A stretch of DNA of 51,979 nucleotides from Rothia nasimurium. GTDB lineage: Bacteria; Actinomycetota; Actinomycetes; Actinomycetales; Micrococcaceae. Where the stretch lies: NCBI RefSeq assembly GCF_004569295.1, contig NZ_SPQC01000018.1, positions 1-51,979 of the forward strand, in the 5' to 3' direction. The position numbers and the translations under genes are program-made. The notes under the pieces were generated by a model. The model worked only from the letters and a program-made list of their open reading frames with translations. It ran no database searches and was not told the origin of the DNA. This document shows positions 2,172-4,362 of the stretch, in pieces; position 1 is the first letter of the stretch; each line of letters opens with the position of its first letter.

Positions 2172-3290
2172 CTACAAGAAGCTGGCATTAAATACTAAAC
2201 CTAGCAGGTAGGTGGCTAGGGCTGCGCCGTAACCGATGGTTAGCTGGCGCAGGCCGCGCTTGAGGGGTGAGGCACCTGAGAGTAGACCCACTACGCCGCC
2301 GGTGACCATCAGGGCAAAGCCCACCAGCAGCATGGAAATCAGCATAGCTGCGCCGCCAGACATGCCGAAAATGTAGGGCAGGATCGGGACGAGGGCGCCG
2401 GATGCAAAGAAGCAGAAGCTTGAGGCGGCAGCCCCCATGTCGCTGCCGAGCGCACCGTGGGCATCCTCGGCGTCCTCCCCCTCAATATCGTCGCGGAAGG
2501 AGAGCGAAGGGTCGCAGTCGCAGGTGAAATAGCCAAAGCGTTCCATGGCGCGGTGGCGGGCGGCCTCCTCGCTCATGCCGCGGGCTTTATAGATTAGTTC
2601 CAGCTCGTTCTGGTTGATGTCTAGCTGATGGGCCACGTCGAGGGTGACCTGGGTGGGGCGGGAGGCATCTAGGAGTTCGCGCTGGGAGCGCACCGAAACA
2701 AACTCACCGGCAGCCATAGACAGGGCGCCTGCAAGTAGGCCGGCAACGCCGGAGAGAAGCACCATGGAGCTGCTGACGCCGGTCGCGCCCACACCCATGA
2801 TGAGGGCAGCGTTTGAGACCAGGCCATCGTTGGCGCCAAAGACGGCGGCGCGGAAGTTACCCGAGAGCTTTTCGCGACCAGAGGTGGAAAGTGCTCGAAT
2901 GATTTCTTCGTGGATTGCCTCGTCAGCTGCCATAGCTTCGGTGGCATCGGGGTCTTCCGCGTAGGGGGAGCGGCCCTCGGCGCGCTGAGCTAGGGCGAGC
3001 ACGAAGACTGAGCCGAAGTTCTTGGCAAGAAGCTCTAGAAAGCGGGCGGAAACGGACGGACGCGGCTCGGGGGTGGCGTGTTCGCCTAGCAGGGTGCGCC
3101 AGTGGTCCTGGTGCCGGAGTTCTGCCTGGGCGACTTCTCTGAGGATTTCTGCTTCTTTTCCCTCAGCCCGGTCGGCCAGAGCGGCATAGATGCGGGCTTC
3201 TGAGATTTCTTCGGCGAGATAGCGACGCCAGCGGCGAATTTGAGCGCGGCTTGGCTGGGTGGAGGGGGCATGGGGGGCGGCTGCTGGCAT
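2172..3290 (-). CDS. Ferritin-like/VIT1-CCC1 family metal transporter (MbfA-like)
   Basis: This 372-residue protein combines two domains. The N-terminal ~130 residues are ferritin-like, with carboxylate/His pairs spaced as in di-iron rubrerythrin helices (AELRHQDH near 56, DEAIHEEI near 124). The rest is a VIT1/CCC1 membrane domain starting at FGANDGLVSNAALIMGV near 150, with about five hydrophobic segments. The architecture matches MbfA proteins, membrane-bound ferritins that export iron in alphaproteobacteria; VIT proteins also move manganese. The ATG start has an AAAGG ribosome site at 3299-3303. It stands alone, divergent from dps, behind a manganese-type riboswitch, so I infer Mn2+ and/or Fe2+ efflux or sequestration. 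The substrate is inference; the family call is firm. Confidence 0.9.
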   Translation of the reverse strand: MPAAAPHAPSTQPSRAQIRRWRRYLAEEISEARIYAALADRAEGKEAEILREVAQAELRHQDHWRTLLGEHATPEPRPSVSARFLELLAKNFGSVFVLALAQRAEGRSPYAEDPDATEAMAADEAIHEEIIRALSTSGREKLSGNFRAAVFGANDGLVSNAALIMGVGATGVSSSMVLLSGVAGLLAGALSMAAGEFVSVRSQRELLDASRPTQVTLDVAHQLDINQNELELIYKARGMSEEAARHRAMERFGYFTCDCDPSLSFRDDIEGEDAEDAHGALGSDMGAAASSFCFFASGALVPILPYIFGMSGGAAMLISMLLVGFALMVTGGVVGLLSGASPLKRGLRQLTIGYGAALATYLLGLVFNASFL

Positions 3291-3310
3291 GGTGTTTACC
3301 TTTGGTCAGG

Positions 3311-3374
3311 AGCCGAAGCGGGGCGAAAATTGCATACACTTCGGCTAAAGAAACTGTAGTTTTCTTAACCGAAG
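3311..3374 (-). promoter_or_regulatory. Riboswitch expression platform with competing hairpins
   Basis: Downstream of the aptamer, the 3' strand of P1 (CTTCGG, 3369-3374) can instead pair with CCGAAG (3339-3344). That same segment, read as AGCCGAAG (3339-3346), can pair with CTTCGGCT (3311-3318) just before the AAAGG ribosome site. The helices are mutually exclusive, as expected for a switching platform. No U-run follows the last hairpin, so translational control seems likelier than termination. The direction of switching cannot be settled by eye. Confidence 0.55.
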
Positions 3375-3497
3375 GTCTCGCTCGCCGCTTGTGAGAAGCG
3401 GTGGTTTACCGGGTGCCGCACCTGGGGTGGGCGAGCCAGTATGTCGATAAACCGCTTTGGCGCTGGGCGCCTGTGGGAACTACTCCCCTTCGTCGCC
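3369..3497 (-). promoter_or_regulatory. yybP-ykoY (Mn2+) riboswitch aptamer
   Basis: The minus strand carries the hallmark pieces of the yybP-ykoY family in order: GAAGGGGAGTAG (3490-3480 region), a GGCGCC-type hairpin, TCGACATACTGG (3446-3435 region), a GGTGCGGCACC hairpin, and closing GCGAGACCTTCGG (3381-3369). The closing P1 helix pairs CGAAGG (3487-3492) with CCTTCG (3370-3375). In known members the GGGGAGUAG and CGACAUACU loops meet to bind Mn2+. The RNA lies in the leader of the ferritin-like/VIT gene and begins a few bases after a plausible promoter. Recognition is by eye, not by covariance model. Confidence 0.86.
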
Positions 3498-3501
3498 TAC
3501 T

Positions 3502-3531
3502 ACTTTATCTACTCAGGTACTTTCTGTGCAA
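3502..3531 (-). promoter_or_regulatory. Promoter for riboswitch and VIT transporter
   Basis: The minus strand reads TTGCAC (3526-3531), an 18-base spacer and TAAAGT (3502-3507). Transcription would start about 7 bases later, just ahead of the GGCGACGAAGG strand that opens the riboswitch P1 helix. The spacing fits; the -10 is only moderately close to consensus. Confidence 0.5.
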
Positions 3532-3605
3532 AGTGATATGTAGCTCTGCGCGGACGCCTGTGGGTGGGGAGCGAGCTGAAGGCAGAAAATTTTTTTGACG
3601 GTTTT

Positions 3606-3633
3606 AATTAGCGCTGGTTCTTTTGCGCTAATT
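3606..3633. promoter_or_regulatory. Inverted repeat AATTAGCGC-N10-GCGCTAATT
   Basis: A perfect 9-bp inverted repeat lies between the divergent VIT and dps genes, about 75 bases upstream of the VIT promoter and 220 upstream of dps. It has no run of T on the exit side of either strand, so it is more likely a protein binding site than a terminator. The regulator is unknown. Confidence 0.35.
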
Positions 3634-3683
3634 CAGATGTGTAGTGTTTGCGGCGGTGTTTATGCTGGTCACCACCACTGAGG

Positions 3684-3702
3684 TTAGGCTTGCATAAGCT
3701 GA
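3684..3702. promoter_or_regulatory. DtxR/IdeR-like iron box upstream of dps
   Basis: The 19-mer starting TTAGGCTTGCATAAG matches the DtxR/IdeR consensus TTAGGTTAGSCTAACCTAA at 14 of 19 positions and has an internal dyad GCTT-N4-AAGC. It overlaps a possible -35 (TTGCAT, 3690-3695). A DtxR-type site before an iron-storage gene makes sense. The assignment rests on consensus matching only. Confidence 0.42.
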
Positions 3703-3737
3703 AATGTAGGTATATTTCCTAGTCATGCCAGGTTTTA

Positions 3738-3762
3738 CTTATTATGATTTATTCATAATAAG
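3738..3762. promoter_or_regulatory. Perfect inverted repeat, probable Fur/PerR-family operator of dps
   Basis: CTTATTATGA, a 5-base centre and TCATAATAAG form a perfect 10-bp inverted repeat 97 bases before the dps ATG. Its AT-rich TTATnATGA / TCATnATAA halves resemble Fur-superfamily (PerR/Fur) sites, and PerR control of dps is common. It lacks a T-run and follows no plus-strand gene, so a terminator is unlikely. Confidence 0.5.
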
Positions 3763-3858
3763 CCTTGAAAAGCTGCAACGAGATGCGTAAGGTTAGATGT
3801 AGACAAGCCGCCAGGCTCTCCCGCATAGCCTGGCACTCTAACGAAAGGAAAGCCTGCT

Positions 3859-4362
3859 ATGAGCAAGTACGCATCATTCACCGTCCCCGGTCTCACCGAA
3901 GAATCAGGCCACCATGTAGCCGACGTTCTGCAGCTTCGCCTGCACGCCCTGAACGACCTGCACCTGGTGCTCAAGCACGCCCACTGGAATGTTGTTGGCC
4001 CCAACTTCATCGCTGTTCACGAAATGCTCGACCCCCAGGTCGACCTGGTGCGCGGCTTCGTCGACGCCATTGCAGAGCGCATGGCCACCATGGGTGTGGC
4101 TCCCAATGGCCTCTCCGGCGACCTGGTCGAAAAGCGCACCTGGGCTGAATACGATGTTGACCGCGCGGACGCTATGACTCACATTCGTGCCCTGAATGAG
4201 GTCTACAACGTTGTAGTTGAAGACCACCGTGCAGCTATTGCCAAGGTGGGCGACATCGACCCCATCACCGAGGATCTGTTGATTGGTCAGACCGCTGAGC
4301 TGGAGCTCTTCCAGTGGTTCCTGCGTGGCCACCTCGAAGACGGTCAGGGCAACCTCAAGTAA
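3859..4362 (+). CDS. dps: DNA starvation/stationary-phase protection protein Dps
   Basis: This 167-residue protein is a Dps-family ferritin, a dodecamer that oxidises Fe2+ with hydrogen peroxide, stores iron and shields DNA. The family's ferroxidase signature is clear: LNDLHLVLKHAHWNVVGP near residues 33-50 (metal-binding His), HEMLDPQVDLVRGFVDAIAER near 55-75 and the following Asp/Glu ligands. The ATG at 3859 has an AAAGGAAAG ribosome site. Length is normal for the family. The upstream region holds a DtxR-like box and a Fur/PerR-like repeat, so iron and peroxide control is inferred. It is divergent from the ferritin-like/VIT transporter, and a hairpin at 4402-4421 separates it from the convergent HAD gene. 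Confidence 0.97.
   Translation: MSKYASFTVPGLTEESGHHVADVLQLRLHALNDLHLVLKHAHWNVVGPNFIAVHEMLDPQVDLVRGFVDAIAERMATMGVAPNGLSGDLVEKRTWAEYDVDRADAMTHIRALNEVYNVVVEDHRAAIAKVGDIDPITEDLLIGQTAELELFQWFLRGHLEDGQGNLK

Follow-up and report, generated by a model that had tools for sequence, protein, structure and literature searches.

Which metal is sensed, and which is exported, when a gene resembling those of bacterial iron exporters stands behind an RNA of the manganese-riboswitch type? This question is raised by a minus-strand gene in a stretch of Rothia nasimurium DNA of 51,979 nucleotides, the whole of which is referred to here as the window. A sequence-only reading of the window had proposed an MbfA-like gene preceded by a Mn2+ (yybP-ykoY) riboswitch. 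The identity of the gene was borne out by Pfam, which places a VIT domain (PF01988, E 1.2e-54, residues 146-364) after a ferritin-like domain (PF02915, E 4.2e-6, residues 26-70). MbfA of Bradyrhizobium and Agrobacterium has the same N-terminal ferritin-like and C-terminal VIT-like domains, but there it is under Irr and, according to a review, limited to alpha-proteobacteria (PMC7762939), whereas the present fusion belongs to an actinobacterial family and is preceded by an RNA switch. The only solved relative found by sequence is VIT1 (PDB 6iu3, E 3.4e-11), and the match is without the ferritin-like domain. We take this structure to be the VIT1 of Eucalyptus, a plant vacuolar transporter.

The predicted aptamer runs on the minus strand from CGAAGGGGAGUAG to GCGAGACCUUCG (3492-3370), and the start codon of the VIT gene (3290) lies 79 nt downstream of its end. 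The extent of 3311-3531 given earlier contains this aptamer but is too wide for it, the rest being promoter and part of the leader. The three aptamer signatures are present in the order in which they had been read, namely GGGGAGTAG at 3488-3480, CGACATACT at 3446-3438 and GCGAGACC at 3381-3374, and so is the P1 helix formed by CGAAGG (3492-3487) and CCTTCG (3375-3370). The helices P1, P2, P3 and P4 make a four-way junction with the internal loops L1 and L3, in which the support is lowest for P2. Details of all the features are presented in Table 1.

Table 1. Features of the VIT-fusion gene, its promoter and its leader (positions of the window).
Feature	Position	Strand	Basis
-35-like hexamer TTGCAC	3526..3531	-	read from sequence; 18 nt from -10
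-10 hexamer TAAAGT, ends 9 nt before aptamer	3502..3507	-	leader comparison
Mn2+ (yybP-ykoY type) riboswitch aptamer (predicted)	3370..3492	-	R1 103 bits, covariation, R1 matches to E. coli mntP and alx leaders
P1.1 5' strand CGAAGG, partner 3370-3375	3487..3492	-	hand-drawn structure and RNAalifold
L1 5' side GGAGUAG	3480..3486	-	aligned R1 matches
P1.2 5' strand UUC, partner GAG 3381-3383	3477..3479	-	alignment, covariation
P2 hairpin GGCGC CCA GCGCC	3459..3471	-	weakest helix
P3.1 5' strand GGUUUAUCG, partner 3403-3411	3445..3453	-	alignment, RNAalifold
L3 one-sided bulge ACAUACU; A at 3442 is the counterpart of X. oryzae A48	3438..3444	-	comparison with PMC6754395 and aligned matches
P3.2 5' strand GG, partner CC 3412-3413	3436..3437	-	alignment, sequence reading
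P3.2 CC and P3.1 3' strand CGGUAAACC	3403..3413	-	alignment, sequence reading
P4 hairpin CCGCUU...AAGCGG	3385..3401	-	alignment, RNAalifold
P1.2 3' strand GAG and L1 3' side CGAGA	3376..3383	-	aligned R1 matches
P1.1 3' strand CCUUCG, common to anti-P1 hairpin	3370..3375	-	fold prediction
Anti-P1 hairpin CUUCGGUUAAGAAA...UUUCUUUAGCCGAAG, exclusive with P1.1	3339..3374	-	predicted pairing
CUUCGGCU, possible partner of freed anti-P1 arm AGCCGAAG	3311..3318	-	predicted in P1-formed fold; inference
Shine-Dalgarno-like AAAGG	3299..3303	-	sequence reading
VIT-family transporter, N-terminal ferritin-like/rubrerythrin domain (MbfA-like), 372 aa	2172..3290	-	Pfam

A set of 30 VIT-fusion loci, own genome included, was taken, and the complete motif was present upstream of the gene in 14 of them. 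Thirteen of these leaders were aligned with MAFFT and 11, among them the leader of the window, were modelled to give the covariance model R1. In the 13 leaders the hand-drawn structure leaves 88.1% of the cells paired against 76.8 +/- 1.2% in shuffles; none of the 500 shuffles was as high, and likewise none was as good in the covariation score. Seventeen of the 33 pairs are changed on both sides, and sliding of the pairing partners lowers the paired cells to 36-51%. Unguided RNAalifold on the same leaders recovers P1, P3 and P4 and does not recover P2, for which the paired cells amount to 55.7% in these leaders and to 83.5% in the model-fitted alignment of R1 matches. P1.1 displays little covariation of its own because it is nearly invariant. 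In an alignment of 100 R1 matches, a set of our own choice in which E. coli mntP is included, 28 of the 33 pairs have changes on both sides and 95.7% of the cells are paired, a value which leans towards R1 because the alignment was fitted to the model. On the window itself R1 scores 103 bits (E 1.4e-23), and the runner-up place in the window scores 11 bits.

The loops are conserved as well. Each position of L1 (GGAGUAG with CGAGA) is kept in at least 94 of the 100 aligned matches, and the window agrees with the consensus. In the X. oryzae aptamer, the N7 of A48 in L3 (ACA48UACU) contacts Mn2+, the equivalent in L. lactis being A41 (PMC6754395). The same position is an A in all 100 aligned matches and in 27 of 27 VIT leaders, 21 of which carry ACAUACU as their L3; the L3 of E. 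coli mntP is ACAUACU, as in the window. The training set of R1 was free of E. coli sequence, and the model matches the leader of E. coli K-12 mntP from end to end (33.6 bits; E 4.1e-7 in 13 kb; 116 nt before the annotated gene) and, weakly, the leader of E. coli alx (19.1 bits, E 0.0014, 81 nt before the annotated gene), both of which have been reported as Mn-sensing riboswitches (PMC9603457). We regard the fold of the aptamer, its conserved loops, its kinship to known Mn2+ riboswitches and, as set out below, its position right behind a -10 box and its association with the gene as shown by computation.

The Rfam model of the class gave a different picture. The RF00080 scan by which the sequence-only reading was to stand or fall yields no gathering hit at the aptamer (Rfam 15); under relaxed limits a fragment (model positions 49-83 of 177) reaches 7.7 bits against a cut-off of 45, and by this cut-off the aptamer is not a member of RF00080. 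Full or nearly full-length hits of 25.5-32.4 bits, overlapping the R1 matches, were obtained with RF00080 in five of 20 related loci (L100, L073, L107, L097 and L104), and a fragment only in L099, giving six of the 20 with sub-threshold hits; in another 13 related loci it finds nothing. We judge the miss to be a limitation of the model because RF00080 reaches its cut-off in none of 148 genomes of the class and yet five of the 20 related loci give overlapping sub-threshold hits. R1 has matches at E <= 0.001 in 122 of 374 class genomes (a draw which overlaps those of the family and the order), as against nine of 148 for RF00080 at E <= 0.01, a comparison that is rough because the draws differ in size.

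Compared with the members of RF00080 (E. coli mntP and alx, L. lactis, X. oryzae), the window has the four-way junction, the P1.1 switch helix and the GGAGUAG/CGAGA of L1 in common, its L3 equals those of X. oryzae and E. coli mntP, and in either case the RNA opens the mRNA of a metal transporter; it differs in its low score to the model and in having a VIT/ferritin-like fusion as the downstream gene. From its fold, loops and homology we would call the aptamer a divergent member of the yybP-ykoY class that falls outside the present Rfam model. The counts of R1 and RF00080 in the class suggest that an actinobacterial branch of this major class of riboswitches escapes that model. Actinobacterial members in themselves are already known, since a leader of this kind precedes terC (cg2157) in Corynebacterium glutamicum, where the transcript has been observed; that leader differs from ours in scoring 49.13 bits to RF00080 and in having TerC, not VIT, as its target (PMC3890552). 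A literature search, with the gene tables of the key riboswitch surveys outside its reach, found no VIT gene as a yybP-ykoY target.

Two other candidates were rejected. A match to RT-2 RNA (RF03077) at 3384-3534 of the minus strand reaches 19.5 bits, short of its cut-off of 40, and was ascribed to chance, and the sole RF00080 hit in the own genome (C58, 23.6 bits) is confined to model positions 51-81 and falls within a same-strand ORF of 218 aa. In the same genome, the leader of terC (G000:C32; L206, 2362-2463, minus strand; GGGAGUAUCCC...GGGAGAGAC, some 35 nt upstream of the probable ATG) resembles another divergent Mn2+ riboswitch; its R1 score is no more than 16.0 bits (E 0.0024 in a search without filters), and RF00080 finds nothing there.

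A promoter directly before the aptamer had been proposed, and comparison of the leaders agrees with this. In all of the 31 leaders considered (30 before intact VIT genes and L035 before a broken VIT), TANNNT ends 5-10 nt upstream of the aptamer, compared to 0-4 leaders in windows of the same width further upstream. With an end at 4-10 nt the hexamer is also seen in 76 of 107 leaders, these being the ones with enough upstream sequence among 115 other loci. A consensus scanner applied to 3250-3860 reported no minus-strand promoter and no terminator. The conserved -10 box just before the aptamer makes it most likely that the mRNA of the VIT gene begins at the aptamer.

Hairpins competing with P1 had been taken for a translational platform, and the two parts of that claim fared differently. 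The anti-P1 helix is supported by fold prediction. Its pairing in the leader of the window is predicted at 0.98 against a mean of 0.28 in 20 shuffles, and over the 31 leaders the mean is 0.69 against 0.36 shuffled (p = 4e-7, with the leaders treated as unrelated). The predicted pairing is 0.5 or higher in 25 of the 31 leaders, the shuffled mean itself reaching 0.5 in four, and is below 0.5 in the other six (L006, L016, L018, L044, L046 and L057), in some of them no higher than in the shuffles; P1.1 is thus predicted to compete with downstream structure in the window and in 25 of the 31 leaders. For the translational part the predictions are divided. With P1 formed, the predicted exposure of the Shine-Dalgarno sequence goes up in 14 leaders, down in seven and stays the same in 10, the mean unpaired value being 0.36 with P1 formed and 0.31 with P1 barred (p = 0.066, with the leaders treated as unrelated), and in the window it falls from 0.47 to 0.36 with the aptamer forced, in energy models which take in neither Mn2+ nor tertiary contacts. 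A U-rich run is visible by eye after the anti-P1 hairpin of L004, where the scanner finds no terminator.

For the distribution of the RNA, positions were taken from the R1 coordinates, the motif regex having missed 50 of 152 loci, and the R1 counts are lower bounds because searches over 40 genomes use stricter filters. At E <= 0.01, matches are present in 53 of 149 genomes of the family and in 50 of 347 of the order, in draws which overlap. The association with VIT recurs in the family, where 46 of the 57 matches are placed 62-236 nt upstream of the matched VIT coding stretch, on the same strand. The other 11 comprise six before a Na/Ca-exchanger gene, two before TerC, two before a broken or cut VIT (L070 before a broken one, L071 before a VIT-like leader truncated where the contig stops) and a weak one (G126:C1:1235930, 29.4 bits), which is left out of the gene assignment. 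In L070 the riboswitch (3802-3929, 105 bits) is retained before a VIT remnant of about 32 residues, and a complete VIT gene at another place in that genome lacks an R1 match.

The next gene was examined at 115 other loci: every one of the 41 order-level places beyond the family, 65 from the class and nine from the family; loci were fetched for 37 of the 92 class matches that still lacked one. BLAST assigns the next gene as MntP-like in 17 loci (5 weak), as a Na/Ca exchanger in 16 (2 weak), as TerC in 11 and as VIT in one. Sixty-eight of the remaining 70 form one cluster, counted as GDT1-like, of which both Pfam-checked members are GDT1 (GDT1/UPF0016); the other two are a broken VIT and the gene of L101, which has no Pfam hit. 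Among the weak calls put to Pfam, one MntP-like protein turned out to be GDT1 and one exchanger Na_Ca_ex; this check covered eight downstream proteins, none of them from the 12 strong MntP calls. The gene yrbG also belongs to the exchanger family. In Vibrio vulnificus yrbG has been noted under a yybP-ykoY riboswitch, in a source which names GDT1, MntP and TerC as Mn2+ efflux or detoxification families (PMC13274385). In L063-L066 the RNA is followed by a Na/Ca-exchanger gene and then by a gene for a DtxR/MntR-type regulator (Pfam-checked in L063), an arrangement that suggests a small manganese operon. In L101, the R1 match (1501-1616, 75.5 bits) precedes an ORF of 476 aa without any Pfam hit, possibly another type of transporter.

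The riboswitch is not a constant companion of the gene. The closest relatives with names are Rothia nasimurium, other Rothia and Kocuria, which accords with the Micrococcaceae of the earlier reading. Among 20 named relatives the RNA is present upstream of VIT in 13, and no R1 match is found upstream in R. aeria (L224), R. mucilaginosa (L227), two Kocuria (L223, L225), two species-unnamed Rothia (L222, L226) and the R. nasimurium locus L212. In the last of these, another strain of the species, the VIT protein is 91% identical, and no trace of an aptamer is seen by eye upstream (700-1230). An R1 match directly before VIT is absent in 103 of the 149 family genomes, some with near-identical VIT proteins, and riboswitch control of VIT is therefore dispensable. 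In a tree of the VIT proteins (67 rows with long branches; L035, of 32 aa, left out), the switch-bearing ones are scattered and at least nine changes are forced, which we read as old presence followed by repeated loss.

Within the family, the VIT fusion occurs in 148 of 149 genomes, MntP in one and GDT1 in none, although no genes follow R1 more often than these two in the 106 loci from order and class. In the family their place seems to be taken by the VIT fusion. The absence of these two is not tied to the switch, because switch-less family genomes lack both too (with one MntP exception). The own genome of the window has genes for TerC and for a CDF transporter, so the VIT protein need not be its Mn2+ exporter. 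Mn is among the metals carried by plant VIT1 and yeast CCC1 (PMC11922923).

On the other side of the VIT gene's promoter lies a divergently transcribed Dps-like gene (3859). The region between the two genes contains a perfect inverted repeat at 3738-3762, CTTATTATGA-TTTAT-TCATAATAAG, which is largely kept in L003 and looks like an operator. Upstream of the Dps-like gene, at 3679-3697, a DtxR/IdeR-like box TGAGGTTAGGCTTGCATAA agrees with the consensus at 15 of 19 positions (16 of 19 in L003). The idea of a DtxR/IdeR iron box replacing the switch found no support: in 36 switch-less VIT loci the best box scores 13/19 (3 loci), a value exceeding the shuffle maximum by no more than one, and the better boxes of this type belong to L002 and L003, both of which bear the switch.

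Taken together, the fold and loops, the matches to E. coli mntP and alx, the -10 box, the occurrence before VIT in 46 of 149 genomes and the Mn-exporter families behind the RNA elsewhere uphold the main proposal of the sequence-only reading, and we consider it very probable that a Mn2+ riboswitch controls the ferritin-like/VIT gene. Mn2+ as the ligand and ON as the direction are taken by analogy from the known class, and from these we infer manganese control of the VIT transporter. The mRNA of the VIT gene would start at this divergent Mn2+ riboswitch of the yybP-ykoY type, which would be the first structure on the transcript. At high Mn2+, the ion between L1 and L3 would dock the four-way junction and stabilise P1.1; at low Mn2+, the downstream anti-P1 hairpin would capture the 3' strand of P1.1 and expression would be off. 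Since Mn2+ is expected to stabilise P1.1 and its scarcity to free the strand for anti-P1, the RNA is most likely an ON switch for the VIT fusion, which would act as a membrane exporter relieving Mn2+ excess. Control may act at translation, or else through intrinsic or Rho-dependent termination.

The exported metal is the point at which the readings diverge. The aptamer might sense Mn2+ while the VIT fusion exports iron, so that a rise in Mn2+ would set off iron export and reset the Fe/Mn balance, for example in concert with the divergent Dps gene during oxidative stress. Both the ferritin-like domain and the descriptions of MbfA proteins as iron exporters with a ferroxidase domain point to iron (PMC7762939), and the Dps-like gene and the DtxR/IdeR-like box between the two genes speak for the same division of labour. 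However, the same RNA precedes GDT1, MntP and TerC in the class, all of them named in connection with Mn2+ efflux or detoxification (PMC13274385), and two of these families are nearly absent where VIT carries the RNA; we hold iron export to be rather unlikely, and Mn2+ as the metal exported by the VIT fusion to be modestly favoured.

It is improbable that in this lineage an RNA of the same architecture has shifted its specificity towards Fe2+ or some other divalent metal. Such a shift would suit a target resembling iron exporters and a sequence beyond the reach of RF00080, but the loops of the metal site are unchanged in the VIT leaders and the L3 is that of E. coli mntP. Hardly credible is a conserved structured leader with some other role, such as mRNA stability or protein binding, and no metal sensing. 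The divided predictions of Shine-Dalgarno exposure would be compatible with it, but R1 matches two known Mn2+ riboswitches, metal-transporter genes stand behind nearly all examined copies, and P1 and anti-P1 are predicted to be mutually exclusive.

With Mn2+ as the sensed and the exported metal, the VIT fusion would be a manganese exporter of the family which, under an inherited Mn2+ riboswitch, took over the job of GDT1 and MntP, a proposal for and against which we find the balance even. If true, the Mn2+ exporters under riboswitch control would include one more type, and a ferritin-like domain would take part in the handling of manganese. Riboswitches reveal the purpose of transporters, and a Mn2+ riboswitch before VIT in 46 genomes, in a family where MntP and GDT1 are almost absent, predicts a manganese function, which suggests that the VIT transporter serves as a manganese safety valve in these bacteria.
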